Below, in pieces: positions 4,184-38,289 of a DNA stretch of 38,289 bases. The notes beneath the pieces were generated by a model. It did no database searches, was not told the origin of the DNA, and worked only from the letters and a program-made list of their open reading frames with translations. Within the stretch, counting starts at the first letter, position 1. The number at the start of each line of letters is the position of its first letter. The stretch covers positions 1 to 38,289 of the forward strand of contig JALHOC010000019.1 in the NCBI GenBank assembly GCA_022843225.1, given 5' to 3'. The DNA comes from Hyphomonadaceae bacterium. Its GTDB lineage: Bacteria; Pseudomonadota; Alphaproteobacteria; Caulobacterales; Aquidulcibacteraceae. Position numbers and translations under genes: made by a program.

Positions 4184-4425
4184 GCCGCGCCGGCACGGCG
4201 GGCGGGTTCGGCGATGACGGACATTTCCGCGCCAGTCTAAGCGCGCACTCAAGTCGGTCGGATAGTTTGGACTCTATCCTCGTATCTTTGACCCTGCATT
4301 TGGGGCCCTAGTCTGGCCGGCGCGCGCCCTTGTGCACGGCCGCCAGGGAGGAGAATGTCGATTTTTGGCCCTGAACCGCCACTCGCCGGTTTGCCCTGAG
4401 CGCCGGGATGAGGTCTTGATTAGGC

Positions 4426-5683: not shown

Positions 5684-5836
5684 ATGACCGCCATCGGCGA
5701 GATCGCGCCGCATACGAGTCTCTTGCGCGATGTCCCAATTGGAGCGCGCGAGCGGTTCAGCGATCGTGGCGATAGGTTGGGTGTGGCCTACCGCCGCTGC
5801 GGCGCCTTTGCGGAAACTGGGATGCCGCGGTTATGA
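5684..5836 (+). CDS. Short ORF in the direct repeat, possibly leader or gene remnant
   Basis: A 50-codon frame (start MTAIGEIAPH, end TGMPRL, stop TGA 5834-5836) that overlaps most of repeat copy 2. The same frame, with the same stop, is present in copy 1 (to position 109), where its beginning is outside the window. The stop lies only 9 nt before the ATG of the MFS gene, which itself has no clear Shine-Dalgarno site, so translational coupling is possible. No family was recognised. It could equally be the C-terminal remnant of a gene duplicated with the repeat. Confidence 0.3.
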   Translation: MTAIGEIAPHTSLLRDVPIGARERFSDRGDRLGVAYRRCGAFAETGMPRL

Positions 5837-5846
5837 CTGTCGCGCA
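5728..5846 (+). repeat. Direct repeat, copy 2
   Basis: This is the second copy of the sequence at 1-119 (117 of 119 positions the same). Homology stops exactly at the A of the MFS ATG (5846): copy 1 continues into unrelated sequence (ATCGAGAC) and copy 2 into the permease gene. Homology may extend left of 5728 but cannot be judged because copy 1 is cut by the window. Confidence 0.95.
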
Positions 5847-9328: not shown

Positions 9329-9880
9329 CTACCCTGCGTTCTTCTCAATCCATACTGCAAACGCTTGCGCAAACGTGGCCAGGAACTTCTTGGTGCCGTC
9401 GTTCACAAGTTTGCCCTGCTCATCGAACAGCGTATGCGCCGCGCCGATATAGGCTTCTGGCTGTTGCAGCGTGGGCATGTTGAGGAACATCAGGCTCTGG
9501 CGCAAATGATGGTTGGCGCCGAAGCCGCCAATGCCGCCCATCGACGCCGAGATCACCGCCGCTGGTTTGCCGTTGAAAACACTCTGACCATAGGGGCGCG
9601 AGCCGACGTCGATCGCGTTCTTCAACACGCCTGGCACTGAGCGATTGTATTCCGGCGTCGCGAACAGCACCGCATCGGCGCTATTTACCTCGTCTCGGAA
9701 GCGCGTCCATTGCGCGGGCGCCGTCGCTTCGAGGTCTTGGTTGAAATGCGGGAGATCGCCGATTTCAACAAATTTGAATACTAACCCCGACGGCGCCTCG
9801 GCGATCAGCGCGTCAACGACCTTGCGATTGAGGCTGTCTTTCCGAAGGCTGCCTACGATGACGGCGATTGTCCGGCTCAT
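9329..9880 (-). CDS. NAD(P)H-dependent FMN reductase
   Basis: A 183-residue flavodoxin-fold enzyme. The flavin-binding signature GSLRKDSLNRKV follows the first strand, and TPEYNRSVPGVLKNAIDVGSRP is the typical second motif of the FMN_red family (ChrR/ArsH/azoreductase-like proteins), which reduce flavin, quinones or metals with NAD(P)H. I chose ATG 9880 because GGGAGATAGT stands directly upstream; the frame extends another 22 codons with poor content. It is divergent from a marR gene with a palindromic operator between them, so quinone, electrophile or oxidant induction is likely by analogy. Confidence 0.9.
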   Translation of the reverse strand: MSRTIAVIVGSLRKDSLNRKVVDALIAEAPSGLVFKFVEIGDLPHFNQDLEATAPAQWTRFRDEVNSADAVLFATPEYNRSVPGVLKNAIDVGSRPYGQSVFNGKPAAVISASMGGIGGFGANHHLRQSLMFLNMPTLQQPEAYIGAAHTLFDEQGKLVNDGTKKFLATFAQAFAVWIEKNAG

Positions 9881-9905
9881 ACTATCTCCCCAAGGGCAAA
9901 CTGGT

Positions 9906-9930
9906 GTATTGTTGCACTTGCAACGAATAC
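9906..9930. promoter_or_regulatory. Palindromic operator between FMN reductase and marR
   Basis: GTTGCA (9911-9916), CT, TGCAAC (9919-9924) is a perfect inverted repeat, and it extends imperfectly to GTATT on the left and AATAC on the right. It lies in the 64-bp divergent intergenic region, 15-40 bp from the marR start and 26-50 bp from the reductase start. Its size fits a MarR dimer site. Confidence 0.7.
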
Positions 9931-9944
9931 CCAAATAGAGGCGC

Positions 9945-10409
9945 ATGCGGCAAGTTCAAGCCCCCCAAGACCCACCAGCTAAAGCCTTTGCCCTGCCAAA
10001 GGATCCCACCCAGCGCGCCTGGGTGGCGATTCAGCGTTTTGGCCCGGCGCTGCTGGAGCGCGTCGAGACGCGCCTGAAAACAGCGGGCTTTCCGGCGCTC
10101 GAATGGTATGACGTGCTCTGGGCTATTGAACGTGAGGGGCCGCTGCGGCAACGCGATCTCGCCGGCCACATGCTGGTCGCGCGCTACTCGATCTCGCGCC
10201 TGATCGATCGCATGGAAGCGGAAGGCTATGTGTCGCGCCGCGAATGCCCCGAGGATGGGCGCGGCCAGATGATCCACGCCACAACCGCCGGCCTCAAACT
10301 GCGCAAGGCGATGTGGGTGGTGTACAGCAAGGCCATGCGCGACGCGCTGGCGCCATTGACGGAAAAAGAAGCTCTGCAGCTGGCGGCGCTGCTGGAAAAG
10401 CTCGCTTAA
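9945..10409 (+). CDS. MarR-family transcriptional regulator
   Basis: A 154-residue winged-helix protein. The core runs from about residue 25 to 125, with the recognition region PLRQRDLAGHMLVARYSISRLIDRMEAEGYVSRRECPEDGRG, where the last part is the wing with the DxRG-type motif of MarR. These act as dimeric repressors released by small phenolics, oxidants or drugs. AGAGG lies before ATG 9945. It is divergent from the FMN reductase, with a clear palindrome in between, so it most likely represses both genes. Its stop overlaps the convergent stop of the CCA-adding enzyme by 4 bp. Confidence 0.9.
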   Translation: MRQVQAPQDPPAKAFALPKDPTQRAWVAIQRFGPALLERVETRLKTAGFPALEWYDVLWAIEREGPLRQRDLAGHMLVARYSISRLIDRMEAEGYVSRRECPEDGRGQMIHATTAGLKLRKAMWVVYSKAMRDALAPLTEKEALQLAALLEKLA

Positions 10410-11644
10410 GCCATCCCCTGCGCCACGGCCTTGAGCCGCTCAATGATCGAGAGCTTGTCATCGGGAAAGTCGGCGTCAATCCACCATTCCTCGACCTCAC
10501 GCATCACTTCGCCGACCTTCGGCCCAGCCGCCACGCCCGCCGCCATCACTTCATCGCCGGAGAGCGGCATTCTCGGCGGCGTCCACATCGCGCCATGCGC
10601 GACCAGCGCGCGCCATTGTTGCGCCTTGTCGTTTCCAGCGCTCGCCCACGCGAGCATCACGCGATCGCGGAACACCGCGTTGCCGAGTTTGTAAATCACG
10701 CGCCGCATCTCCCTGAGCGACATGTACGACGTGATTTTCACGTCCTGGCCGAGCGCATCGACGAGGCGATCGCGTTCCTCGTTGGAAAGCTTCAGGCGAC
10801 GCGCCAAAGCGCCCGCGCTGATTTGATCGTTGAGCGCCGCCGCCACCCGCGTCATCGCGTCAACGGGCAACAACAATTCCGCTTCAAGCCGCATGAGCGC
10901 GTCGAGCCGCGCATGATTGGACAATTCCGGCGCGGCGCGCGCGCGCACGTCGATCGCGTCCATGCCTTCCCAGGTCGCGCGCGGATCGGGCGCGGCGAGA
11001 AGTTTCTTGAGCTCCTTCCACACGCGCTCGGCGGAGATCGTGTCGATGCCGGCCATGAGGTCGGCGCAGGCGTGCAGGCCGTGCGGATCGAGCGGCCCCC
11101 GCGCATACCAGGCGTTGAAGCGGAAGAAGCGCAGGATGCGGAGATAATCTTCCTTGATGCGCTGATGCGCGTCGCCGATGAAAATGACGCGGCCAGCGCG
11201 TGCGTCGTCCAAGCCGCCGCCAGTGGGATCGTGAACTGCGCCGCTGGCGTCGGCGTAGAGCGCGTTCATGCGGAAGTCGCGCCGCTGAGCGTCTTCCTCC
11301 CAGCTTTCGGTGAAGGCCACCGTCGCGCGGCGGCCATCCGTGCTCACATCGCGCCGCAGCGTCGTCACTTCGAACGGCTTGTGATTGACCACGACCGTCA
11401 CCGTGCCGTGCTCAACGCCGGTGGGGTGCGCGGCGAAACCGGCTTTGGCGCAAATCTCTGTCACCCGATCCGGCGTCAGCTGCGTGGCGATGTCGATGTC
11501 ATCGACCGGCCGGCCCATCAAGGTATTGCGCACGCAACCGCCCACGAAGCGCGCGCCGCCAGGGCGCGCGGCTTCAAGCGCGGCGATCAGCTTTTGGGTT
11601 TCTGGCGCTTTGAGCCAGGCAGCGTGGGGGATTGCGGCTGTCAT
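10406..11644 (-). CDS. cca: CCA tRNA nucleotidyltransferase
   Basis: A 412-residue class II nucleotidyltransferase that adds or repairs the 3' CCA end of tRNA (or a poly(A) polymerase-like relative). The head domain shows GGCVRN (35-40) and the metal-binding D49-I-D51; RRDFRMNAL and EDYLRILRFFRF are the conserved neck motifs. Length fits bacterial CCA/PcnB-like enzymes. ATG 11644 was chosen, although no strong ribosome site is seen; a TTG at 11671 in frame is an alternative. It heads the minus-strand end of a housekeeping stretch and is convergent with marR. Confidence 0.9.
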   Translation of the reverse strand: MTAAIPHAAWLKAPETQKLIAALEAARPGGARFVGGCVRNTLMGRPVDDIDIATQLTPDRVTEICAKAGFAAHPTGVEHGTVTVVVNHKPFEVTTLRRDVSTDGRRATVAFTESWEEDAQRRDFRMNALYADASGAVHDPTGGGLDDARAGRVIFIGDAHQRIKEDYLRILRFFRFNAWYARGPLDPHGLHACADLMAGIDTISAERVWKELKKLLAAPDPRATWEGMDAIDVRARAAPELSNHARLDALMRLEAELLLPVDAMTRVAAALNDQISAGALARRLKLSNEERDRLVDALGQDVKITSYMSLREMRRVIYKLGNAVFRDRVMLAWASAGNDKAQQWRALVAHGAMWTPPRMPLSGDEVMAAGVAAGPKVGEVMREVEEWWIDADFPDDKLSIIERLKAVAQGMA

Positions 11645-11700
11645 CGCGACTTGTATTCGCGCAGTTTGCAAACGCGTTCAACCACGCTCTCAAGCACCGG

Positions 11701-12129
11701 TCACATCCGCTCGCCCGGCAATTTGCTAGCCTGTTTCACCCATTTCTCGAACTGCGATTCGTCGAGTTCGCCCTCGCGCACATCGTAATAGCGCACTTGC
11801 GGATACTTGGATGTGCCTTCCGGCGGCGGCTTGAGCGAAGAGCCATCGAAGAACGTTACCTTCACGTATTTGGCAAAGCAGTGGACGCTCAAGAACCAGC
11901 GCCCTTCTTCGACGCCGTAGAACGGCGAGTTCCACTTCACCGCTTTGTTCACGCCGGGAACCGCGCGCACGATCGCTGCATCGATGCGGCGCGCCACATC
12001 CTGTTTCCAACCAGGAATAGCGGCGATGTAAGCGGTGACCGGCGCATCGCCGAAGCCTTTAGCGATTTGCGGGTTATCGCCGGAGAGGAGCTTGGGCGCG
12101 GCCTTCGCCGTCTTCTTAGCGCTCGCCAT
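11701..12129 (-). CDS. DUF1801 (YdhG-like) protein
   Basis: A 142-residue protein with the DUF1801 fold: GWKQDVARRIDAAIVRAVPGVNKAVKW, then WNSPFYG and a beta-rich middle with FAKYVKVTFFDGSSL. The family's biochemical role is unknown. Its ATG lies inside the 3' end of the Nudix gene (14-bp overlap), so translation is probably coupled and the two genes form an operon. The Lys/Ala-rich N-terminus (ASAKKTAKAAPK) looks like a disordered tail. Confidence 0.85.
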   Translation of the reverse strand: MASAKKTAKAAPKLLSGDNPQIAKGFGDAPVTAYIAAIPGWKQDVARRIDAAIVRAVPGVNKAVKWNSPFYGVEEGRWFLSVHCFAKYVKVTFFDGSSLKPPPEGTSKYPQVRYYDVREGELDESQFEKWVKQASKLPGERM

Positions 12130-20686: not shown

Positions 20687-22186
20687 TCAATCGGTCCTGA
20701 CAACACGAAAACCGCCGAAGTCGAACCGGGCCCCGGGACTGCCCATGCCGGAGTTCGAAGAGCGTTGGGAGAACGCGTCATCGATCCAGGAGCCGCCTGC
20801 GCGGACGCGGTACCGGCAGCCGTCCACAGAACAATCCTCAACCCACTCGCGAACATTGCCATGCATGTCGAAGAGTCCAAACGCGTTCGGCTGGAATGAG
20901 CCGACTGGCAAAGTCCTATTGTTGCAGCGATCAAAATTGGCGCCGTTGCGTACGCTTCGATCACAGACCGGGTCCTCGTCGCCCCAGGAATAGTGTGTCG
21001 TCGTGCCGGCGCGCGCGGCCCATTGCCATTCCGCGGCTGTGGGCAGACGGTACCGCTGACCGGTGCGTTGGCTGAGCCATTGCACATAGGCTTGCGCGTC
21101 GTCCCAATTCACATTGATCACCGGGCGATTGCCACGCCCCCAACCCTCATCGCTGGGTTCGTATCCATTGCAGCCGCCCGCAGCCACGCATGCGTCCCAT
21201 TGCGCGAACGTCACTTCGGTTCGAGCTACTGCTAACCACTGCCCAGGAATGCGCACCATTTCGGGGCATTCTCGGCACTCGGGGAAATTCTGCACCTGAG
21301 CCGGCGCTTGTCGCGACCCGGCAGCCGGCGCTGGCGCCGTGGCCTGCTCTGGCTCTGTTGCGCTTTCTTCGCTGCGCGCATCCGCGCCTACCACCATGAC
21401 AACACGAAAACCGAGACCGCCGCTTCGACCTTGTGGATCGAGGTTACCAGCCTGAGGAAGGTGTCGCGGCGGCGGGTCGTAAAAGCCGCCGCCGCGAACG
21501 CCACGGGTCCAGCAATTGGATTCTGAACAATCCTCGACCCACTCCGAAACGTTGCCTTGCATATCGTAGAGTCCAAACGCGTTCGGCTGGAAGGAGCCGA
21601 CAGGCAAGGCGCCATCGCCACAATAAAAGTTGGCGCCGTTGGGTGCGCTTCGATCGCAGACCGGCTCTTCATCGCCCCAGGAATAGTTCGCTGCTGAGCC
21701 CGCGCGCGCGGCAATCTCCCACTCGGCTGCTGTCGGCAAGCGATAGCGATGCCCGGTGCGTTGGCTGAGCCACTGGATGTACGCCTGAACATCGTCCCAG
21801 GCGACATGAACCACGGGAAGGTTGTCTTCGCCGACAGGCCTGTAGCCATTGCATCCGCCCGCCGCGACGCAGGCGCCCCACTGGGCGAAGGTCACCTCGT
21901 GGCGGCCGACAGCGAAGTTTTGCCCCGGGATGCGCGCCATCTCCGGACAATCCGAACAATCGCGGAATGTCTGCGCGCCTTGCCCCTGTGCGTTTGCATC
22001 GAGCGCATGCTCTTGGACTTGCGATTGGACTTGGGTCGGCGTGGCGTCTTGAGCCTGCCGGGCTGAGGGGGAAGCAAAAAAACTCCATACGCCGAGCCCG
22101 ATCGCCATCAGCGCGATCGCTGCAATCCCGCCGCCGATCAGCAGCCGCCGGGAGCTACTCCCCGTTTTTTCGCCCTGCATATCCAC
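20687..22186 (-). CDS. Membrane-anchored protein with two SUMF1-fold domains
   Basis: A 499-residue protein. An N-terminal transmembrane helix (about 15-38) places two tandem SUMF1/FGE-sulfatase domains outside the cytoplasm (about 80-270 and 305-499), each with the ARxEVTFAQWxACVAAGGCNGY, WDDxQAYVxWLSQRTGxRYRLPTAAEW and PNAFGLxDMxGNVxEWVEDC motifs. The two copies are very similar to one another, so they arose by internal duplication. The paired cysteines of true formylglycine-generating enzymes (C-x4-C just before GFRCA) are absent: both copies read GFRVV. Sulfatase activation is therefore unlikely; a binding or other role is possible. GTG 22186 and ATG 22180 are candidate starts. It lies just after fusA and its terminator. 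Confidence 0.85.
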   Translation of the reverse strand: MDMQGEKTGSSSRRLLIGGGIAAIALMAIGLGVWSFFASPSARQAQDATPTQVQSQVQEHALDANAQGQGAQTFRDCSDCPEMARIPGQNFAVGRHEVTFAQWGACVAAGGCNGYRPVGEDNLPVVHVAWDDVQAYIQWLSQRTGHRYRLPTAAEWEIAARAGSAANYSWGDEEPVCDRSAPNGANFYCGDGALPVGSFQPNAFGLYDMQGNVSEWVEDCSESNCWTRGVRGGGFYDPPPRHLPQAGNLDPQGRSGGLGFRVVMVVGADARSEESATEPEQATAPAPAAGSRQAPAQVQNFPECRECPEMVRIPGQWLAVARTEVTFAQWDACVAAGGCNGYEPSDEGWGRGNRPVINVNWDDAQAYVQWLSQRTGQRYRLPTAAEWQWAARAGTTTHYSWGDEDPVCDRSVRNGANFDRCNNRTLPVGSFQPNAFGLFDMHGNVREWVEDCSVDGCRYRVRAGGSWIDDAFSQRSSNSGMGSPGARFDFGGFRVVRTD

Positions 22187-24983: not shown

Positions 24984-25355
24984 TTACTTCGGACGCTTGG
25001 CGCCATAGAGCGAACGGCGCTTCTTGCGATCCTTCACGCCTTGGGTGTCGAGCACACCGCGCAGGATGTGATAGCGCACGCCCGGCAAATCCTTCACCCG
25101 GCCGCCGCGGATCAGCACCACAGAGTGCTCCTGCAGATTGTGGCCTTCGCCCGGGATATAGCACACGGCTTCAATGCCGGTGGTGAGGCGCACCTTGGCG
25201 ACCTTACGCAGCGCTGAGTTCGGCTTCTTCGGGGTCGTCGTATAGACGCGGGTGCAGACGCCGCGCCGCTGCGGGCAGGCCTTCAGCGCCGGCGACTTGT
25301 TGCGCACTGGCTTCGGTGACCGGGGCTTCCGGATCAGCTGGTTGATCGTCGGCAT
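24984..25355 (-). CDS. rpsL: 30S ribosomal protein S12
   Basis: A 123-residue S12 with the hallmarks [31 protein letters not shown] and [17 protein letters not shown]. The Lys residues of KPNSA and GGRVKD are the classic streptomycin-resistance sites and both are the sensitive (wild-type) Lys. It acts at the decoding centre. The start at ATG 25355 follows AGAGGCGAC. It is first of the rpsL-rpsG-fusA operon, with a plausible promoter about 150 bp upstream. Confidence 0.98.
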
Positions 25356-25507
25356 GTCGCCTCTTCTTCGTCCTGTTCCACCAAACTCAATTAGCGCGCC
25401 CGCCGGCCCTTTGGAGACCGCCTGGAGGCGCGCTGCGATAAGTTCCAATCGGCGGGGCCCGGAGCCATGTCGAGGCGTTAAGGGCAGCCGTTCCGAATGA
25501 GGGTGGT

Positions 25508-25536
25508 TGTCTAGGGGCGCACAAGCGGCGCGTCAA
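25508..25536 (-). promoter_or_regulatory. Sigma-70-type promoter for the rpsL operon
   Basis: On the minus strand TTGACG (25536-25531) is followed after 17 bp by TAGACA (25513-25508). The -35 is a near-consensus hexamer and the spacing is ideal; the -10 is weaker but acceptable for alphaproteobacteria. Start of transcription would be near 25500, giving a ~145-nt leader before rpsL. Confidence 0.55.
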
Positions 25537-25605
25537 GGACCCGGATTTTCCGGTTCGCCCTCGTCGCAAAGAAAACGGCGAGCTTCTTGGGCGCCCGCCG
25601 GGGCG

Positions 25606-27153
25606 CTAGCGCAAAATGCCAGCCTCAACCAGGATACGACGTGCGGGTTCGACGCCTGCGCCATAGCGCCTCCACCTGCCCACTGACTTAGTGTTAATCG
25701 GTTCTCGCACCTGAGCGGAGCTAAGCGTGGCAACCGGTGCATCGTTTTCGTGTGGCTGCAAACAAGCCTCGTTCCAAGGCAAGCCGCAGAAGGCGACGAT
25801 CTTGCGGCTCATAGTATCGGGATCACTCACAAGGTCCTCGTAGCCAACCTCCGTGAAGCCATCGGCTGGCAAATTCTCGCGCCAGTGCGCAACCAATCGA
25901 TCAAAGAAGACGAAATAGCGCGCGGTGTCTTCGAGGTCATAGGAATAAGCGTACGCGCTCCCGCCCAGGAATTGCCGGTAATTGCCGACAATTGAATCCA
26001 TCGGATCGCGCCTTAAGCAAAGAATCCGTGCGTTCGGGAGAGCACGATTTATCAAGCCTGAATAAAGAAAATTCAATGGCAGCTTGTCCACAAACCTGGC
26101 TGCGCCGCTGGAAATGCGCTGGCGTGCAGCGTCTTCATACTCCCGACCCAAGACTGCCAAGTCGGCCTTCGCCGCTGCCTGAAAAGCCTCTGAAGAATAG
26201 CTGATTGTGACGTTTGCGTGTTTGTGGATTAGAGCTGGGAATGTCGGTAGTTCGCCCGCGCTCGCCACGTCGGGGTGTGCACTGATGATGCGCTCGACGA
26301 GCGTCGTCCCCGATCTCGGCAATCCGACAACAAAAATGGGCGCCGTCGTGGGATGCCCACCTGCATGAGATTTGCCCGAAGATGTCGCGGCCGACGCGGC
26401 AAAAATCGCGCGCGTTTGGTCAGTCGAAAAGCTGACCTTGTCCTTCATGGCGCGTTTGGCAAACCCTAACGCAGCGAGCGCAAGCTCATATTGCCCTATC
26501 TCTTCATAGGACCTGACTAGCGCGTGACCGATCTGCGCGGCCTCCTCGCCATCCTTACCAAGCCGATTAAACAAGCTCTCCAACTTCGCGACATAGTTGC
26601 GCTCGGGAGTCTGCTTTCGAAGATTGACCAGCGACAGGTAGGCCGGAGTGAAATCGGGATCACATTCGATGCAGGTCTCATAAGCGCGCGCGGCACCGTC
26701 TATGTCGCCCAAAACTGCTAACGCTGCACCAAGATTGAGCCAGTATTGCGCTTGGCCCGGCGCAATCGCTACGGCCTTCTGAAACGCGTCACGGGCGCGG
26801 TCGTAGTGATCGACGCGAGTGAAGACGAAGCCCAATAAATCCCACGTCGGCGCATCGGTCGGCTCCAGAATCAACGCGCGTTCTGCGACAACTCGAGCCT
26901 CTGAAACACGCCCCAGGTCGGCATAGCATTTGGCCAGATAGACGTAGGCCAAGGGGTATTGAGGGAGGCGCAGCACCGCATGGGCGGCAAACTCGCCCGC
27001 AATACGGTGCTGCCCTTTGCGGGATGCGATCCGCGCCGCCAACAGAAAGAAACGTCCGTCGGCGCCGTCCGCCTTGATCCCGGTTTGGCAAACTTCAAAC
27101 GACCGATCCAGCTCGCCTGATGCGAACAGGAGTTCAGCTTGTTGATACGTCAT
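25606..27153 (-). CDS. TPR-repeat sulfotransferase
   Basis: A 515-residue fusion of about five tetratricopeptide repeats (residues 1-245) to a PAPS-dependent sulfotransferase domain. The 5'-phosphosulfate loop is VVGLPRSGTTLVERIISAHP (around 275-294); the 3'-phosphate motif is CLRRDPMDSIVGNYRQ. The catalytic base is probably His291 in SAHP (inferred). Such TPR-sulfotransferases are often found beside long TonB receptors in alphaproteobacteria. Here it lies 145 bp downstream of the 1015-residue receptor on the same strand, with a hairpin-plus-T-run between them. The acceptor (protein, glycan or small molecule) is unknown. The N-terminus has no signal peptide. Confidence 0.88.
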   Translation of the reverse strand: MTYQQAELLFASGELDRSFEVCQTGIKADGADGRFFLLAARIASRKGQHRIAGEFAAHAVLRLPQYPLAYVYLAKCYADLGRVSEARVVAERALILEPTDAPTWDLLGFVFTRVDHYDRARDAFQKAVAIAPGQAQYWLNLGAALAVLGDIDGAARAYETCIECDPDFTPAYLSLVNLRKQTPERNYVAKLESLFNRLGKDGEEAAQIGHALVRSYEEIGQYELALAALGFAKRAMKDKVSFSTDQTRAIFAASAATSSGKSHAGGHPTTAPIFVVGLPRSGTTLVERIISAHPDVASAGELPTFPALIHKHANVTISYSSEAFQAAAKADLAVLGREYEDAARQRISSGAARFVDKLPLNFLYSGLINRALPNARILCLRRDPMDSIVGNYRQFLGGSAYAYSYDLEDTARYFVFFDRLVAHWRENLPADGFTEVGYEDLVSDPDTMSRKIVAFCGLPWNEACLQPHENDAPVATLSSAQVREPINTKSVGRWRRYGAGVEPARRILVEAGILR

Positions 27154-27242
27154 GTGGCGGCACCGTTCCGCGTGAAAGGCGATGTCTAGGGAGTGCTATT
27201 AACGCGTCAAGGCCGCCGGCGGGTCGATCAGCGCCAAAAGAA

Positions 27243-27271
27243 GCGGCGGGCCCCGAGGAGGGACCCGCCGC
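27243..27271 (-). terminator. Hairpin with T-rich tail after the TonB receptor gene
   Basis: GCGGCGGG and CCCGCCGC make an 8-bp stem (27243-27250, 27264-27271); on the minus strand the stem is followed by TTCTTTT. It lies 28 bp past the stop of the receptor gene, before the sulfotransferase, so the two genes may be at least partly uncoupled. Confidence 0.7.
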
Positions 27272-27298
27272 GAAAGAAACAAACCTAGACGCCCGGCT

Positions 27299-30200
27299 TT
27301 AGAAGCTAGCGCGCGCGCCCAAGTAGAAGAACCGCCCGATCGGGCTAACCGGCGTCGCGAAAGATCCGCGATCTGGCAGCTGGTCGGTGAAGTTGTTCAC
27401 GCCGCCATAAAGACTGAACCGATCAGAGAAATCGTACTGCGCATAAAGGTCATGCACCGAACGCTCGGAGAAGTTGAAGTACTGAGAGTCAACGATCTCA
27501 GGCTGGACCGAAATCTGATCTGTCGAGAAACGGGCAGTTTCAGAGAACCAGCTGTACCCGTAGTTCAGACGGAAGTCGCCGTAGGTCCAGGTGGCGTCAA
27601 AGACAACTTGCCAATCGGGATATCCCGGATTGCCCACACTCTCAGACGGCTCGCCACCAGCGGCGTCGATGAACTGAAACGAGTCAAGGCGCGTCGCGTT
27701 CAGGCCGAACTGGAATTGGCCGATGTTACGGTCGATGCCGATATCCGCAGGATCGAGGCGATAGCGTATGCCGATATCGTACCCACTTGTCTCGTACGAG
27801 GCGACGTTGATGAACGTCGTCGTAAAGCCGGAAACACCGCCCGCTGGAATGGATAGTGCAGGAATGCCGGGGACGGTACGGTCCACAAAGTCGCAATACT
27901 GGTTTGGCTGAGGCAGATCGTAGCAGAAGTTGACTATTGTCTGCCCGCTGAGCAACTGAATGGCATTCTCCAACTCGATCGACCAATAATCGACCGAGAT
28001 AGAGAGGCCGGTGAGGATCGGTGGTTCCAGGACGATACCGTAGGTGATCGTCGACCCGGTCTCTGCCTCAAGGTCTCTGTTGCCCGAGGAGAACCCTGGG
28101 ATAGAGGTAGAGGTAGTATTGTTGAACAGATTGGGATCGGCGGGGATCAACGGATTCAAGGCGTTCAGCGCAATGAACTCCGCCGTACAATTGGCCAACC
28201 GATCGGACCCTGGATTTGCGTTCACGCGGTTGTCGTCGCACGGGTCGTTGATTTGGTTGAAAGTCTGCACTTCCGGAGAGAACAATTCCGCGACGTTTGG
28301 CGCGCGCACGGCTTCTGCTTGAGTTCCACGCACCATGAACCACTCTACCGGACGCCAACGCAGGCCATACTGCCACGTGTCGGTTTGCCCCACGGTGGAG
28401 TACTCGGATAGCCGATAGGCGGCATCCGCCGTCAGCGAGTGCGCAAACGGCATATCGGCCAGGAGCGGTATTTCCAGCTCGCCGTATATTTCGGCTACGT
28501 CGAACCGGCCGAAGCTATCCTTGCCGCGGCCATTCCAGATCACATCATATGCTGCCCAATTGACGACAGATTCAGCCGCTTCCGCGATCTCGCCCAGCGC
28601 GGCATGGTCATACTCACTCTCCTCCTCGCGATATTCGACGCCGGCTGAAAATCCGACCGGGCCCGCAGGAAGCGAAAAATAGTCTTCCGTGTCCCCGCTG
28701 ACGAATCCACTGAGCACGAATTGCGATATCGCAATCTCGTGTTGGAGCTCCGTCATGATCCAATCGCGCGCGGCATCGGACATCACGTTATTGCCGAAGA
28801 TGTTGGCAGCGATGCACTCACCTGGGTTGAAAGTCAGGAAGAAAGTCGGAAGTCCCCAATCGGATGGAACCGAAACGCCATCATTGCTTCGGCAGGTTGG
28901 TCCGAGCGGCCCAACGCCATCGGGATCGATCGCATCAATCGCTGCGAACCAGCGTTCGTTGTTACGCGTGCGGTAGCGCTGAGTCGTCTCGGTCCGCCCC
29001 CACACCATCGACGCTTCGTAGCGAATCTTGTCGGTGATATCGCCTTCGAGGCCCAGCACCGTACGATAGGTGTTACGTTCGACGTCTTGAAAAGTCGATC
29101 CAAGGTCGAAGTTGTCGCGAGCCATAAAGACGCCGCCGTAATTGTAGCCGTTCCCGGTCGGGCCGAGCGCATCGGCCACGATATTCGCAGGTATGAACGG
29201 GTTGTCGATCGGTAAGAACATGAAGAAGTCGTACGTGACTTGACCTTCAAACTGGGTCTCGGTGCGTGCCCACTTGGCTTCACCGAACACACGGTGGTTA
29301 TTGTTCAGATCGTAATGGAACCTTGCATTCAGCGTGTAGCGATCAAGGGCGGGCAAGAGCTGATCAACGAACGAATCAAGCAATGAGCCCGAGCCGCCGA
29401 TCATGGTAAAGGCACCCGCTGCGGTGCCGTTCACCCACGGCGTACCGTCCCCTAGGAAGCTTTGACCAAAAAACCCGGTCCCCGTCGTAAAATCCGAAAA
29501 CACCGTCCCCTGAGGCGAGGTATCGATGTAGCGAACATTTCGGAAGAAGTCGAAATCGGGGATCCCGTCATTCAGACCTGTGTCGGCCGGGTTTTCGACC
29601 AGCGTTTCGCGCAGACCAGGCGTCGAGAAATCGCGATCGCGCGAATTCAGCTCTTCGGCTTGAGACATCTCGAACGACAGCGCGATGTTCCCGCGGCCGT
29701 TCGCGAAATTGGTGCCTGCGATCACGCTCGCGAAAAGATCTGCCGCGCCGCCAGCTTCCGGTTCGCCATACTGAAACCGACCCTGCACGCCGCTGAAATC
29801 ATCCCGCATGATGAAGTTGACAACGCCGGTGACCGCATCGGCGCCGTAAATGGCCGAGGCGCCGCCTGTCAGAACTTCCACACGTTCCACGAGATCAATC
29901 GGAATGGTGTTCACGTCGACCGCAGCCGAGCCCTCGTCACCCGCCACATGACGACGACCGTCAACAAGCACAAGTGTGCGCTGCGTTCCGAGGCTGCGCA
30001 GATCGAGCAGGTTCAAGCCCTGGGTTCCACCATTTTCGGTGTCTGCGGAATCTTCCGAGTCGAAAGAGTTCAACAGCGCAGGCATGTCCTGGATGAACGA
30101 GGTCATGTTTGTCGCGCCAGATTGCTGGATCGTCGCGGCGTCAGCCGACGCGACCGGGTTCGACAGAACGAAGTCATTCTGACGAATGCGCGTACCGGTA

Positions 30201-30346
30201 ACGATGATCTCTTCTTCCTCAGCGCTGGCGTCCTGCGCCATAGCGTTCACTGGCGCGAGCGCCATGGCCGCAGCCGCCGCCCCTGCCAAACACGTTGTGT
30301 AGGAAAGGAAGTTCTTGCGGCTACCCGCAGCCATCTTCTTGCTCAT
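27299..30346 (-). CDS. Long TonB-dependent outer-membrane receptor
   Basis: A 1015-residue receptor of the long type common in Caulobacterales and Sphingomonadales. Signal peptide about 1-37 (AMA-Q); TonB box EEEIIVTGTRI (about 43-53). The plug runs with LDLRSLGTQRTLVLVDGRRHV, VDVNTIPIDLVERVEVLTGGASAIYGADAVTGVVNFIMR. The barrel has many aromatic strands, a Cys-containing extracellular loop (NFCYDLPQPNQYC) and the C-terminal FFYLGARASF. AGAGGGG stands before ATG 30346. Ligand unknown; members of this branch often take up glycans or peptides, which is family knowledge, not read from the sequence. The adjacent TPR-sulfotransferase is its likely partner. Confidence 0.93.
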   Translation of the reverse strand: MSKKMAAGSRKNFLSYTTCLAGAAAAAMALAPVNAMAQDASAEEEEIIVTGTRIRQNDFVLSNPVASADAATIQQSGATNMTSFIQDMPALLNSFDSEDSADTENGGTQGLNLLDLRSLGTQRTLVLVDGRRHVAGDEGSAAVDVNTIPIDLVERVEVLTGGASAIYGADAVTGVVNFIMRDDFSGVQGRFQYGEPEAGGAADLFASVIAGTNFANGRGNIALSFEMSQAEELNSRDRDFSTPGLRETLVENPADTGLNDGIPDFDFFRNVRYIDTSPQGTVFSDFTTGTGFFGQSFLGDGTPWVNGTAAGAFTMIGGSGSLLDSFVDQLLPALDRYTLNARFHYDLNNNHRVFGEAKWARTETQFEGQVTYDFFMFLPIDNPFIPANIVADALGPTGNGYNYGGVFMARDNFDLGSTFQDVERNTYRTVLGLEGDITDKIRYEASMVWGRTETTQRYRTRNNERWFAAIDAIDPDGVGPLGPTCRSNDGVSVPSDWGLPTFFLTFNPGECIAANIFGNNVMSDAARDWIMTELQHEIAISQFVLSGFVSGDTEDYFSLPAGPVGFSAGVEYREEESEYDHAALGEIAEAAESVVNWAAYDVIWNGRGKDSFGRFDVAEIYGELEIPLLADMPFAHSLTADAAYRLSEYSTVGQTDTWQYGLRWRPVEWFMVRGTQAEAVRAPNVAELFSPEVQTFNQINDPCDDNRVNANPGSDRLANCTAEFIALNALNPLIPADPNLFNNTTSTSIPGFSSGNRDLEAETGSTITYGIVLEPPILTGLSISVDYWSIELENAIQLLSGQTIVNFCYDLPQPNQYCDFVDRTVPGIPALSIPAGGVSGFTTTFINVASYETSGYDIGIRYRLDPADIGIDRNIGQFQFGLNATRLDSFQFIDAAGGEPSESVGNPGYPDWQVVFDATWTYGDFRLNYGYSWFSETARFSTDQISVQPEIVDSQYFNFSERSVHDLYAQYDFSDRFSLYGGVNNFTDQLPDRGSFATPVSPIGRFFYLGARASF

Positions 30347-30744
30347 CTGCTACCCCTCTTCGTTCGACCAGGGATTTCCCCCCAATCACCCGGACCGCGC
30401 CGCGCGCCGATCGCTCAGCAGGCTGTCCCCAAAAACCCATATCCAGCCCACGACTCGGATCAGCTAGTGGGATTGTCAGCCTAAAGCGGTATCCGAGCCG
30501 TTTGCTGGATGCAAACGCTTGTCGCGGAATCGACCCAATCTCACCACGTTGTTGTTGTTAATTTGTCACAACAGCCTCAGCCATCGACGCGGGCGTGGCG
30601 CACATCGGCAGTTCGTGCGCAGTTTGCGCCTATGCCGCCCGAAAGGCTACGCGGCGGCGGCCTTCAACTACACCGCCGCGATCCGGCCTCGCACCGGCCC
30701 ACGTGCTCATTGGGCCATGCGCCCCAACCTCAAAACTCTTTACG
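30347..30744. other. Intergenic region upstream of the long TonB receptor
   Basis: 398 bp between the receptor start and the reductase remnant. No gene is convincing: the frames seen are short and of low quality. It holds a 19-bp palindrome (see 30499-30517) and CG-rich stretches; it is the likely promoter and leader region of the receptor. Confidence 0.5.
30499..30517. promoter_or_regulatory. 19-bp palindrome upstream of the long TonB receptor
   Basis: CGTTTGC, TGGAT, GCAAACG is a perfect 7-5-7 inverted repeat, 153-171 bp upstream of the receptor ATG. It looks like a repressor dimer site (for example LacI- or GntR-like), but no such regulator is nearby. Confidence 0.45.
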
Positions 30745-31177
30745 GCTCAATCCGTATCTAACGCCTTCATTCCCGCTTCGTCATAGCGCTCGCCCTTGAC
30801 GCGCTCGGCCAGCGCGCCGAGGCGCGCGATGTCGGCGTCGGTAAGCGTCACGCCCGCCGCGCCAAGATTAGTTTGCAAATTGGCGAGCTTGGTCGTGCCC
30901 GGAATGACGTGAACGTTGGGCGCGCGCGCCAGCACCCAGGCCAGGGCAATCTGCGCGGCCTTGGCGTTTTTCTCCACCGCCACCGCTTCGATCTCGCGCA
31001 CAAGCGCGCGGTTGGCCTCGAAGGCATCGCCGGCAAAACGCGGCGACATCACACGGCGAAAGTCTTGCGCGCTGGCTGCCTCCACGGAGAACGCGCCCGT
31101 CAGCATGCCGCGCCCAAGCGGCGAATACGCCACCAGCGAAGCCCCAACCTCTGTGATCGCAGGCAGCACGTTCTGCT
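30745..31177 (-). pseudogene. 3' fragment of an aldo/keto reductase gene (duplicate of 33594-34026)
   Basis: 433 bp that duplicate the end of the intact reductase gene at 33596-34579, same strand. It encodes residues from about 185 to the stop, in frame, and lacks the N-terminal half with the catalytic residues. Only three differences from the intact copy were found, at 30750, 30756 and 30759; all are synonymous and all fall in the last five codons, while 30760-31177 matches without a difference. Homology ends abruptly at 31177, 26 bp from the stop of the TonB receptor gene. An in-frame ATG at 31169 could still give a 140-residue peptide, but it would be inactive. Confidence 0.92.
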
Positions 31178-31203
31178 AGCGGCGGGATGCTGGTGCGCGA
31201 TCG

Positions 31204-33435
31204 CTAGAAGGTGCGCGACACTTGGAGTCTCAGTGTGCGGGGCGCTCCGGGTCGCCCGGCGATCGCTAAGGTATAGTCGGCAGTGCCGACGACGTATTCC
31301 TCGTCGGTCAGGTTGGAGCCAACCAACACGGCTTCCCAATCACCACCCGCTGACGTCCACCCCAGGCGGGCGTTGAGCACGCTATAGCCCTCCTGCTGCT
31401 GTGCGTAATTGCTTACGCCGGCGGCGGCGCCGTCGTTGGCAGCGGTAAAGAAGACGCCCGTCTGGTGGCGCAAGTCAGCGCCCAGAAAAATCTCACTCGC
31501 GTTGCTCAACACCCAAGCATAGCGACCACCGATCGTGAACGCCCATTCCGGCGCGTTGTTCAGCGTATTGCCGTCGGCGCTAAAGGTGCCGAGCGTATTG
31601 GTGAATGCGCCTTCGTAGTCGACGTACGTCGCATCGAGATAGGCTAGATTGGCGAACAGATCGATGTTGGACGCCGGCCGTGCGGTGATTTCCAGCTCAG
31701 CGCCATTTACCTCTGCGGTCGCCGCGTTCTGTGTCAGCGCGCCCAGATTGCGGAAGCTTTGGACCTGTAAGTCCGTGTAGTCGTAATGGAACACAGAAAG
31801 GTTTGTTCGCAGCCTGTCGTCAAACCAAGACGCTTTCACTCCGCCTTCATAAGCCCAAAGGAATTCAGGCCCATAACCTGCGCTCGCATCGACAGCATTG
31901 TTGGAGCCATAATCAAAACCGCCGCTCTTGAACCCGCGTGTCGCCGACACGTAGAGCAAGACCTCGTCAAGGCGATAGTTCAGGCCAAGCTTTGGCGTCA
32001 CGGCCTCGAAATCGCGCTGCGTGTCCACGATGAAGGGGTTTGAGAAGAACGGCGAGCCGATGATAACCGGCCCGTTTTCCGCCACACGCGGATCGAAGGA
32101 GACAGAAGCGGTCCAAAAATCGTTTAGCTGATAGTCCTTTTGGTCTTGAGTCCAGCGGATCCCAGCCACAACGGAAAGCGCGTCCGTCAAGAAATATTCG
32201 CCCTGCGCAAACAGCGCGACCGACTCAGAGACAAGGTCTGGACGCTGAATGTGGGACACGCCGAAAGGAATGACCGCCAACGTCAAAGGTTCTTGGTTTT
32301 CCTCGCGGAAATAGTAGGCGCCCAGCACAAAATTGAAGCGCTCATAATCGCCGATAAGATTGAACTCTTGGCTGATTTGTTCATGCCGGATCGGCGAAAT
32401 CAGATTGCGCAGAATTGGCGACGAACTCGAATCCGCATCCGCTTCAATCGAACCCCGGAATTGGCGATAAGCCGTGAGCGACCGGACTCGCAGGCCGTCG
32501 GTGAGATCGGCATTAAACTCCGCGGCGACGCCCGTGATGCGGGCGATGGTGCGGTTGTCTGCGTCGGCGGCGATTTCGCTGAAATCGCCGAGAATGCTGT
32601 CTTCAAGGGGCAGCCCCGTGGGACGCAGCAATTTGGGATATTGTCCAAGCGCGCTATCCGACGAGGTGTGATCGACACGCAGTGTGAGATCGGCGTTCGC
32701 ACCAATGGGAAACAGGAGCTGGCCGCGCACGCCCCAGAAGTCTTCGTCCTCCAGGTCGGGACCGGTCGAATTGTTGCCCAGATATCCATCATGGACTGAG
32801 CGGTTCAACGCCAAGCTCCCGAGCACGCCGCCATCGCCAATCGGGCCGCTCACATAGCCGGCCGCGCCGAATTGGTTGAAGTCACCTGCGGTCAGCTGGA
32901 CGCGGCCTTCGAACTCTTCGCTTGGCCGGCGCGAGACAATGTTGATGGTGCCGCCGACTGCGTTGCGCCCATATAACGTGCCTTGCGGACCGCGCAGAAC
33001 CTCTATGCGCTCAACGTCCAGGAAATTGCTCAAATAGCTGAGCGGGCGGGCGAGATAGACTCCATCAAGGTGGGTGGTCGAGCTCGGATCCGATCCAATA
33101 AAAACAATGTTGGACCCGACGCCGCGGATGTAAACCTGCGTGTAGCCGCTGAGATCCGACACTTGCAAACCCGGCGCGTAGCCGACTAGGTCCTGTACAT
33201 TCGAGAGTCCCCGCTCCTCAAGATCATCGGCGCTCAGAACACTGACAGCCAACGGCGTCGACTGAACCGCGCTCTCGCCCTGCTTGGTCGCCGTAACGAT
33301 GATCTCCTGGAGCGCCGGCGGGTTGTCCTGGGCCCAGGCGCTGCCGGCCGAAGCCACGAGGGCCGTCGCGGCCAGAAGCAGCGCGCGCAGCGCGCGACGT
33401 GTGGGAAGTGCGGCTAGGGCGTGCATGCGGGTCAT
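31204..33435 (-). CDS. TonB-dependent outer-membrane receptor, bracketed by reductase repeats
   Basis: A 743-residue receptor from ATG 33435 (GGGGGGA upstream; a GTG eight codons earlier is possible). The Arg-rich signal peptide ends AWAQ; the TonB box is LQEIIVTATKQ. Plug motifs are complete: VQDLVGYAPGLQVSD, YIRGVGSN, LDGVYLARP, ERIEVLRGPQGTLYGRNAVGGTINIVSRRP. A barrel with NLTDEEY and C-terminal LRLQVSRTF follows. It belongs to the 'iron complex / other ligand' receptor class with VSVLSADDLEERGLSNVQDL. It lies between a whole and a partial copy of the aldo/keto reductase gene. Ligand unknown. Confidence 0.92.
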   Translation of the reverse strand: MTRMHALAALPTRRALRALLLAATALVASAGSAWAQDNPPALQEIIVTATKQGESAVQSTPLAVSVLSADDLEERGLSNVQDLVGYAPGLQVSDLSGYTQVYIRGVGSNIVFIGSDPSSTTHLDGVYLARPLSYLSNFLDVERIEVLRGPQGTLYGRNAVGGTINIVSRRPSEEFEGRVQLTAGDFNQFGAAGYVSGPIGDGGVLGSLALNRSVHDGYLGNNSTGPDLEDEDFWGVRGQLLFPIGANADLTLRVDHTSSDSALGQYPKLLRPTGLPLEDSILGDFSEIAADADNRTIARITGVAAEFNADLTDGLRVRSLTAYRQFRGSIEADADSSSSPILRNLISPIRHEQISQEFNLIGDYERFNFVLGAYYFREENQEPLTLAVIPFGVSHIQRPDLVSESVALFAQGEYFLTDALSVVAGIRWTQDQKDYQLNDFWTASVSFDPRVAENGPVIIGSPFFSNPFIVDTQRDFEAVTPKLGLNYRLDEVLLYVSATRGFKSGGFDYGSNNAVDASAGYGPEFLWAYEGGVKASWFDDRLRTNLSVFHYDYTDLQVQSFRNLGALTQNAATAEVNGAELEITARPASNIDLFANLAYLDATYVDYEGAFTNTLGTFSADGNTLNNAPEWAFTIGGRYAWVLSNASEIFLGADLRHQTGVFFTAANDGAAAGVSNYAQQQEGYSVLNARLGWTSAGGDWEAVLVGSNLTDEEYVVGTADYTLAIAGRPGAPRTLRLQVSRTF

Positions 33436-33593
33436 TGGGGTCCCCCCTTTGCCCAGCACATCGTGGCGCCGGGGCGTGTTATGACCTCATTTTTACCCTC
33501 TGTTCCTCCCAAAGCGCTGCGCATTCTCTGGGCAAGCGAATTCGCGGGGTCTGCGTGTACCGTTCAGCGGGCAAGCACACCCCCACGCACCAT

Positions 33594-34026
33594 GCTCAGT
33601 CCGTGTCCAACGCCTTCATTCCCGCTTCGTCATAGCGCTCGCCCTTGACGCGCTCGGCCAGCGCGCCGAGGCGCGCGATGTCGGCGTCGGTAAGCGTCAC
33701 GCCCGCCGCGCCAAGATTAGTTTGCAAATTGGCGAGCTTGGTCGTGCCCGGAATGACGTGAACGTTGGGCGCGCGCGCCAGCACCCAGGCCAGGGCAATC
33801 TGCGCGGCCTTGGCGTTTTTCTCCACCGCCACCGCTTCGATCTCGCGCACAAGCGCGCGGTTGGCCTCGAAGGCATCGCCGGCAAAACGCGGCGACATCA
33901 CACGGCGAAAGTCTTGCGCGCTGGCTGCCTCCACGGAGAACGCGCCCGTCAGCATGCCGCGCCCAAGCGGCGAATACGCCACCAGCGAAGCCCCAACCTC
34001 TGTGATCGCAGGCAGCACGTTCTGCT
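33594..34026 (-). repeat. Parent copy of the duplicated reductase 3' end
   Basis: This part of the intact aldo/keto reductase gene corresponds to 30745-31177, 2849 bp away in direct orientation. The two copies differ at three positions, all near the stop codon. Confidence 0.95.
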
Positions 34027-34579
34027 CGACGTCACGAGTGAAAATCGAATACTCGGTCTGGATCGCCGCGATCGGATGCACTTTGGCGCCGCGGCGGATG
34101 TTTTCTGAGCTGGCTTCGGACAAGCCAATCGCGCGCACTTTGCCTTCCTGCACCAACTTCGCCATCGCGCCGATCGTTTCCTCGATGGGGCGGCTTTTAT
34201 CGGGGCGATGCAGATAATAGAGATCGACGTGATCGGTACGCAGGCGCGTCAGCGATTGCTCGATCGCACGGCGCATATTGGTTTCGGAACCATCGACGCC
34301 GAGGCGCCGCCCCGTCGCCCAATCCACCACCGGGCCGAATTTGGTGGCGATGAACACCTTGTCGCGTTTGCCGGCAAAGGCTTCGCCGAGCTGTTCTTCG
34401 TTGGTCATGTAGAGTTCGGCGGTGTCGAAATGATCGACGCCGAGATCGATGGCTTTATGGATCAGCGCATTCACGTCAGCCTGCGTGGTCGGCGGGCCAT
34501 AGAAGGCCGCCAGCCCCATGCACCCCAACCCGATTGGGTTCACGTGCGGGCCGCCCCGGCCGAGTTCGCGCTTCGCCAT
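33596..34579 (-). CDS. Aldo/keto reductase
   Basis: A 327-residue TIM-barrel oxidoreductase using NADPH. The catalytic tetrad is complete: D52, Y57 (FDTAELY), K80 (IATKFG) and H124 (YYLHRPD). NADP-binding motifs near the end (YSPLGRGMLTG, IPGTTKLANLQTNL) fit the AKR11/AKR13-like group. Substrate unknown. It starts 20 bp from the divergent uvrB start. Its 3' part is duplicated downstream beyond the TonB receptor gene. Confidence 0.93.
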   Translation of the reverse strand: MAKRELGRGGPHVNPIGLGCMGLAAFYGPPTTQADVNALIHKAIDLGVDHFDTAELYMTNEEQLGEAFAGKRDKVFIATKFGPVVDWATGRRLGVDGSETNMRRAIEQSLTRLRTDHVDLYYLHRPDKSRPIEETIGAMAKLVQEGKVRAIGLSEASSENIRRGAKVHPIAAIQTEYSIFTRDVEQNVLPAITEVGASLVAYSPLGRGMLTGAFSVEAASAQDFRRVMSPRFAGDAFEANRALVREIEAVAVEKNAKAAQIALAWVLARAPNVHVIPGTTKLANLQTNLGAAGVTLTDADIARLGALAERVKGERYDEAGMKALDTD

Positions 34580-34599
34580 GATCTGCCTCCGTTCGATCT

Positions 34600-36966
<2,367 letters not shown>

Positions 36967-37005
36967 TGACTTGCGCGTATCGATTGAGGCGCGCATTTTC
37001 TGCCG

Positions 37006-38088
37006 ATGTCTGATTCAAAAGATGGGCCAATGAGCGTCTCGCGTCGCCCAGCGCGATCTGGCTCAGTCTCGTACGCGACACCGGTGGTGCTGCACGAAAG
37101 CAGCAAGCGTCAGGTCGTTATGGTGCCATTCTTTATACCTCATTCCGACAAGCACGAACTTGCGATCAAAATTCAAAGTTATCGGAAAGGCGAAGCGCCG
37201 ACGCCCTGGGTTCTCATTGAAGATAAATCCGTCTCGCTGAGGGAAGAAGCCGCAAGGGCGTTACTCAAGGCTTTGCGCACGCATTTACAGGTCGCCCAAT
37301 CGGACGAAGACGGCGACTACATTCTGATCAAGGTCGCCGATGGCGTTGCTGAAATCGGGCGGCACGAGCCCGCCGCGGTAGCCCAAGCGATGATGCGCGT
37401 GCTTGCGCAGGAAGAGATTGCGAATCATCTCGTCAACGCCGAGCTGAGCTCGCAATTCCTTGATGCGTTACGTGGTTCGATCCGACTTGCGGAGATGAAA
37501 AACGCGGTGGCCGAGCTCCGAACAATGCTCGATTTGCAGGACAACGACGAACAAAGATACCAAGAATGGTGCGAGGCGCATTTCTGGGTGTTCGGGAATG
37601 CTTATGTTCTTCGCGACGACTTTCGCCGTTTCTCCGAGGCCGACCAAGCCGACATGCTCATGGCCTGCACGGCCTCAGGGTTTCGCGACATCCTTGAATT
37701 AAAGCGACCGGACATGGATGTCCTGCGGTTCGACGGTGGACACCACAGCTATTTCTTCGCTTCCGACGTGAGCAAGGCGATCGGACAAGTCCACCGCTAC
37801 ATGGACGTGCTTGCCGAGGTTGCGGTTCGAGGTCTCCGAGACAGGCCCGAAGTCGTCGCCTACCATCCCAGAGCAATAATTGTAATTGGGCGTTCTCACC
37901 AGTGGACGGGCGATCAGCACCGCGCGCTTCACGGACTAAACAGGCGCCTGAACGACATAACGATCATGACTTATGACAATCTGCTTCTTCAAGCGGAGCG
38001 CCTTCTGGACATCGTGACGCCTCAACCAGAAACGGACGACGATCCGTTTTCAAGTCCATTCGACTCAGACGACGAAATGCCTTTCTAA
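37006..38088 (+). CDS. Shedu-like (DUF4263) PD-(D/E)XK nuclease
   Basis: A 360-residue protein. Residues 1-180 form a mixed domain not recognised (contains PFFIPHSDKHELAIKIQSYRKG). The C-terminal part shows the DUF4263/Shedu nuclease pattern: helix YQEWCEAHFWVFG (185-197), D216 in the second strand, E231-L-K233-R-P on the third (PD-(D/E)XK core), and Q261-VHRYM. The tail is acidic (PETDDDPFSSPFDSDDE). Shedu SduA proteins are single-gene anti-phage defence nucleases. It follows uvrB by 39 bp on the same strand but has lower-GC codon use than uvrB, suggesting separate origin. ATG 37006 or 37030 could be the start; neither has a strong ribosome site. A hairpin with a T-run follows. Confidence 0.72.
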   Translation: MSDSKDGPMSVSRRPARSGSVSYATPVVLHESSKRQVVMVPFFIPHSDKHELAIKIQSYRKGEAPTPWVLIEDKSVSLREEAARALLKALRTHLQVAQSDEDGDYILIKVADGVAEIGRHEPAAVAQAMMRVLAQEEIANHLVNAELSSQFLDALRGSIRLAEMKNAVAELRTMLDLQDNDEQRYQEWCEAHFWVFGNAYVLRDDFRRFSEADQADMLMACTASGFRDILELKRPDMDVLRFDGGHHSYFFASDVSKAIGQVHRYMDVLAEVAVRGLRDRPEVVAYHPRAIIVIGRSHQWTGDQHRALHGLNRRLNDITIMTYDNLLLQAERLLDIVTPQPETDDDPFSSPFDSDDEMPF

Positions 38089-38099
38089 GCTAACCTGTG

Positions 38100-38121
38100 A
38101 AAGAGTGACACACACTCTTTT
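38100..38121 (+). terminator. Terminator-like hairpin after the Shedu-like gene
   Basis: AAAGAGTG (38100-38107) and CACTCTTT (38113-38120) form a perfect 8-bp stem around ACACA, followed by T and CGCCC. The short T-run is formed by the stem itself, so it could work in both directions, but it is weak. Confidence 0.6.
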
Positions 38122-38172
38122 CGCCCTCACTCTGCCCCTCCCGCAAACGACACAAGCCGCTACAATCCCCCC

Positions 38173-38289
38173 ATGAACAAGCTCTCCGGCGGCGGCGTAT
38201 TCCTCCTCTGCCTCTTCCTCGGCATCATCTTCGACCAGGTCGCGCTTGGGATTATCGCCGGCCTCTTGCTGGGCGCGGGCGTCGGCAAA
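38173..38289 (+). CDS. Small hydrophobic protein, cut by window edge
   Basis: The first 39 codons of a gene starting at ATG 38173 (MNKLSGGGVFLLCLFLGIIF), with two hydrophobic stretches separated by one Asp, and a Gly/Ala-rich second helix (GIIAGLLLGAGVGK). No ribosome site is evident. It is probably a small membrane protein, but cannot be named from the part visible. Confidence 0.45.
   Translation, partial: MNKLSGGGVFLLCLFLGIIFDQVALGIIAGLLLGAGVGK

Follow-up and report, generated by a model that had tools for sequence, protein, structure and literature searches.

The window analysed here, the whole stretch of 38,289 nucleotides from a Hyphomonadaceae bacterium, carries on its minus strand an intact aldo/keto reductase gene, then a TonB-dependent receptor gene, and then a 433-bp copy of the 3' end of the same reductase. 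Repeat search and alignment confirmed this order, which had been claimed in a first-pass annotation of the sequence. The features, in minus-strand order, are as follows.

33596..34579, minus strand: intact aldo/keto reductase of 327 aa, with Pfam PF00248 over residues 16-307
33594..34026, minus strand: first member of the direct repeat, the 3' part of the intact reductase, delimited by sequence alignment
33460..33593, minus strand: stretch of 134 bp separating the reductase from the receptor
31204..33459, minus strand: TonB-dependent receptor of 751 aa, full length, with Pfam PF07715 and PF00593
31178..31203, minus strand: 26 bp from the receptor stop to the joint at 31177/31178
30745..31177, minus strand: partial reductase copy of 433 bp, comprising the 3' end from codon 185 on

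The reductase and the receptor both cover their Pfam models almost fully, and a later ATG at 33435 offers the receptor an alternative start. The unit bounded by the reductase repeat measures 2,849 bp. The two members of the direct repeat (30745-31177 and 33594-34026) are identical at 430 of 433 bp. As had been claimed, the three mismatches (30750/33599, 30756/33605 and 30759/33608) are synonymous third-codon changes (Leu, Asp and Asp) that all fall within the last five codons; between this mismatch zone and the joint the copies are identical over 418 bp. The probability of finding all three differences by chance in the 15 bp at a given end is 3.4e-5, or 6.8e-5 if either end is allowed. The partial copy starts at nucleotide 554 of the reductase (codon 185), where 'AG' opens the shared 433 bp and the preceding bases differ between the copies, leaving the joint at 31177/31178 with no homology on its left side. 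A 9-bp repeat proposed earlier as a mark of the joint does exist, occurring twice in the window, but it lies 15-41 bp away and was rejected as the joint; it carries little weight as evidence because 1.4% of all 40-bp stretches in the window contain some repeated 9-mer.

Within positions 28000-38289 the reductase repeat is the sole repeat family longer than 24 bp, and when the genome itself (2.86 Mb) was queried with 30600-31300, matches were found at the two reductase places alone. Scans of 30300-34700 for promoters (0 versus 0.9) and terminators (7 versus 4.9, sd 2.3) stayed at chance level. A search of 60 genomes of the family with positions 33400-33620 returned, besides the region itself, only two short matches, one of 27 bp to the partial copy and one of 24 bp in G046, and the 134-bp stretch between reductase and receptor thus appears to be without a convincing relative in these genomes. 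The DNA flanking the receptor on both sides likewise gave short matches only in the 60 family genomes and in the three relatives described below.

Receptor-free relatives and the search for a donor

Three genome samples were used, of 30 genomes from the genus, 60 from the family and 385 from the class, the genome under study being counted in each. The reductase has a match at E <= 1e-60 in 12 of the 30 genus genomes, its own included, with an identity of 89-90% in G008, G027 and G029 and of at most 60% in the other eight. A comparison proposed at the outset was with relatives that have an intact reductase and no receptor, and all three relatives at 89-90% are of this kind: in each the reductase adjoins uvrB, and the 14-16 kb stretches around it hold neither a receptor match beside the reductase-uvrB pair (E 1e-10) nor a second piece of reductase. 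The genome of G008 is 57% complete, and the region concerned nevertheless lies on one contig. The receptor is an insertion relative to these three genomes, because they lack both the receptor and the partial copy and because no close match to the receptor was found. Although three of three relatives are receptor-free at the reductase, they are other species, and no exact empty site is seen because each of them has different DNA beyond the reductase stop. Alignment of both reductase copies with the relatives, also proposed earlier, gave a divided answer, in that each copy agrees with some relatives and not with others at the differing codons. The suggestion that the diverged end marks the foreign side finds no support in the tails of the relatives, which fail to tell which copy is native.

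Receptor matches were collected beyond E 1e-60 (genus), 1e-120 (family) and 1e-150 (class), with scoring limited to 36 candidates per genome in the genus, 18 in the family and 2 in the class. Among the matches listed, identity in the 29 other genus genomes (E <= 1e-60) reaches at most 37%, none of the 59 other family genomes has a match at E 1e-120, and two genomes of the class sample besides its own, both from another order, reach E 1e-150 with 48-49% identity. The best matches on GTDB contigs are in Croceicoccus estronivorus (46%) and C. ponticola (42%), and the best on a plasmid is in Niveispirillum cyanobacteriorum (40%). The nearest receptors anywhere searched are 42-49% identical among the matches listed, and as a possible donor nothing in the genus, family and class genomes, GTDB contigs or plasmids exceeds 49% identity over the length of the receptor among those matches. 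The genomes, GTDB contigs and plasmids searched yielded no donor in which a receptor adjoins this reductase. A foreign composition of the receptor was not seen either, its codon-usage distance being the smallest of the 17 genes compared. As to substrate, all NCBIfam matches fall below the cut-offs and the best PDB match is the pesticin receptor (E 3e-27), while the neighbours of three distant relatives share no common clue except a short-chain dehydrogenase beside two of them.

A variable slot between the reductase and the str operon

Beyond the partial copy, the DNA between the reductase and the str operon forms a slot whose further genes and borders are these.

27299..30346, minus strand: second, larger TonB receptor of 1015 aa (Pfam)
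25606..27153, minus strand: TPR-sulfotransferase of the slot (Pfam)
24984..25448, minus strand: rpsL, which forms the far, conserved border of the slot ahead of rpsG and fusA (Pfam)
34600..36966, plus strand: the conserved near border, which we take to be uvrB from its translated sequence

Positions 25448-33596 were compared with the corresponding stretches of the three relatives (L017, L018 and L019). Within the stretches compared, the border genes uvrB, reductase, rpsL, rpsG and fusA are all conserved; the identity of uvrB is 97% in G029 (523 aa aligned), 94% in G027 (95 aa) and 84% in G008 (107 aa), the aligned lengths being limited by the ends of contigs or of the stretches compared. The distance from the reductase stop to rpsL is about 8.1 kb in the window, or 5.3 kb without the receptor unit, and about 11.2 kb in G008, 12.1 kb in G029 and 13.8 kb in G027. 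The slots of the three relatives are filled by large TonB receptors together with genes for a sulfotransferase, an Asp/Arg hydroxylase or a 2OG-Fe(II) oxygenase. Five large slot receptors from the four species, the two of G029 included, are pairwise 25-36% identical, and the 1015-aa receptor of the window is 25-28% identical to the large receptors in the slots of its relatives. Part of the content may be common to the relatives, because G008 and G029 share a hydroxylase at 56% identity. Within the genus the best match of the 1015-aa receptor is in G021, at 55-59%, where it adjoins a TPR-sulfotransferase of 62% identity; neither uvrB nor rpsL was matched in the 18 kb examined near that receptor. 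In the 400 bp downstream of the reductase stop, the five sequences compared share matches of 18-25 bp only. The differing content and these short matches indicate that the reductase stop marks one edge of a receptor slot that undergoes turnover of its content.

Two observations concern the surroundings of the slot. In G029, on the other side of the str operon beyond fusA, a sulfotransferase-like match (40% to that of the window) and a receptor match (29%) are found at one locus (L078:4661-5956 and 9772-11868). In the window, a protein of the Shedu family (SduA, DUF4263) is encoded beside uvrB at 37006-38088 (PADLOC PDLC00402, E 8e-145; Pfam PF14082).

Possible routes to a receptor bounded by reductase sequence

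The partial reductase copy seems to be the scar of a receptor gain, as is left when a DNA circle recombines into a chromosome. We put the probability at about one half that a circle derived from a very close relative integrated into the resident reductase by a single crossover. A fragment of donor DNA, reaching from reductase codon 185 to 26 bp past the receptor gene, would have been joined at its ends inside the cell into a circle of 2,849 bp, and one homologous crossover with the resident reductase would then leave the reductase intact and followed by the receptor, with a partial copy linking the receptor to the resident DNA downstream. The event could be reversed by recombination between the identical 418-bp stretches, which would remove the receptor and leave the reductase intact. 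The circle was also the reading of the first-pass annotation, and it is favoured by the layout, by the existence of receptor-free relatives and by the lack of a close receptor in the genus, but the crossover does not, as first proposed, account for divergence at one end only. In its support the insert is bounded by the 433-bp direct repeat, so that direct repeats of the target sequence flank an insert as in Campbell-type integration; the joint has no homology on its left side, and another receptor of the window is likewise bounded by repeats. What counts against it is that the searches above gave no donor, that the codon usage of the receptor does not look foreign, and that the donor reductase must have been identical over 418 bp and yet have differed in the tail. 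A single crossover keeps all differences between donor and recipient, and the donor reductase would therefore already have matched except in its last 15 bp; the crossover by itself cannot confine the differences to that segment. The simplest addition, we infer, is an earlier linkage of each tail to a different slot content, since recombination would keep the reductase cores alike but not the last bases beside unlike DNA, and on this account the three tail differences would have been linked to the receptor allele before integration.

The identical 418 bp and the diverged 15-bp tail would both follow from one event if the incoming DNA crossed over at the very end of the resident reductase while its other end was joined, without homology, to a point halfway along the reductase of the sister chromosome, so that 418 bp of resident DNA became duplicated. 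Such homology-facilitated illegitimate recombination has been described in three naturally competent species, according to the sections of the E. coli study drawn on here (PMC3240628). The joint at 31177/31178 is of the end-joining type it would produce, and one homologous and one non-homologous joint are indeed found, a combination equally compatible with a circle. The crossover would, however, have been needed within about 15-20 bp of the end of homology, as judged from the alignment, and the same sections predict a deletion of resident DNA (PMC3240628), whereas no loss between the joints is seen and the reductase is duplicated. We regard this route as rather unlikely.

The variable slot invites another explanation, in which a tandem duplication arose in a lineage with reductase and receptor and the second receptor copy was later replaced by other slot content through exchange with a receptor-free strain. 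The steps are ordinary, they account for the repeat as well as the tail difference, and the joining of two slot alleles suits the nature of the slot; but two events are required and no intermediate was found among the genomes searched. We judge this sequence of events improbable.

It must also be asked whether the arrangement is a product of assembly, made from a reductase with its native downstream DNA and a separate 2,849-bp circle, from a tandem array or from a mixture of strains. The genome is in 117 contigs, and the window contig (C19) shares an exact 119-bp end overlap with contig C70, as is found in graph-based short-read assembly (the assembler itself is presumed from this pattern). 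The exact 418-bp repeat is longer than the 119-bp overlap, and the path through it consequently rests on further support. The same overlaps would result from a free circle or an array of the 2,849-bp unit, and the layout is read from the assembly. Against an artefact, the joint and both tails must occur in the reads, and the contig traverses the repeat twice, a path that assemblers normally take only when read pairing supports it. We think an artefact of this kind has only a small chance of being the cause. A site-specific integrative element was considered and rejected: Pfam gave no integrase family in the 17 window proteins scanned, there is no tRNA gene, and the repeat, at 433 bp, is not a short attachment-site repeat. 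The frames between the repeats are the receptor and shorter overlapping ones of at most 219 aa.

A second receptor locus lies at the other end of the window, where a TonB receptor gene is situated between two copies of another repeat.

768-2861: TonB receptor between the copies of the second-locus repeat

Positions 1-119 of the window repeat 5728-5846 with two mismatches, the latter copy sitting just upstream of an MFS gene (5846-7174). The end of C70 that overlaps the window start carries a longer form of this repeat, 153 bp (C70:1-153, L084), with two mismatches to 5694-5846. In addition, window positions 4191-4371 repeat C70:2593-2773 over 181 bp at 97%, upstream of a GGDEF/EAL gene. C70 and the window contig are probably neighbours, because of their exact end overlap, and the second locus looks as if two versions of a single region had been joined in tandem with a receptor enclosed. 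A search of the three relatives with the MFS gene, made without a positive control, yielded nothing at E 1e-60. Elsewhere in the window, the gene at 7113-8417 belongs to the Pfam Beta-lactamase family (PF00144), which is a family assignment only, and a gene with an FGE-sulfatase domain at 20687-22186 contains an internal repeat (20829-21079 versus 21525-21772, 81%) and two Pfam stretches. Conceivably, though we would not expect it to prove correct, receptors are gained and lost at both the slot and this second place by recombinase-free exchange, as repeat-bounded cassettes that could be excised without a scar or amplified when the repeats on either side recombine.

The reductase locus offers a readable and tidy natural example of a complete receptor added beside a conserved gene that is left unbroken, and it also shows how such an addition could be undone. 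Were repeat-scarred receptor slots common in the genus, the route of receptor change would be traceable from genome sequence.

Comparison with known systems

The kind of event proposed is already known, and the locus would be a natural instance of it; the comparisons below draw on selected sections of the papers cited. An E. coli lacZ assay used a linearised plasmid of which one end was homologous to the target; among 60 Lac-minus recombinants, 56 gave the PCR product expected of a duplicated part of the lacZ 3' segment, and the duplications measured 109-950 bp in the 14 that were sequenced (PMC3240628). The authors' reading was partial degradation, re-circularisation and a single crossover, and homology-facilitated illegitimate recombination was assigned to 4 of the 60 clones (PMC3240628). 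The latter process has also been put forward, though with reservation, to explain effector arrays in Vibrio (PMC5361080). With homology-facilitated illegitimate recombination the present locus shares one homologous joint and one without homology, as well as the position of variable genes downstream of a conserved gene (PMC3240628, PMC5361080, PMC2884548), and it differs in that resident DNA is duplicated here where its loss is predicted in the E. coli assay (PMC3240628).

Partial duplication during uptake of partly homologous DNA is likewise seen in the merodiploids that arise by transformation in Streptococcus pneumoniae, but those duplications are in tandem, lie at repeats and span about 100-900 kb, with the exception of one 3,276-bp case without flanking repeats (PMC3784515). 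The closest likeness is to the Campbell-type integrations at lacZ, in which the insert also lies between a copy of the target gene and a partial 3' copy (PMC3240628), and the 433-bp duplication falls within the 109-950 bp of those clones (PMC3240628). The first gene copy is intact here and broken in the lacZ clones, and in this respect the locus matches those single crossovers of the assay that left the gene intact (PMC3240628). Unlike the assay, it presents a natural and unselected case, in which the circle is known by inference only, of a duplication related to those obtained in E. coli (PMC3240628).
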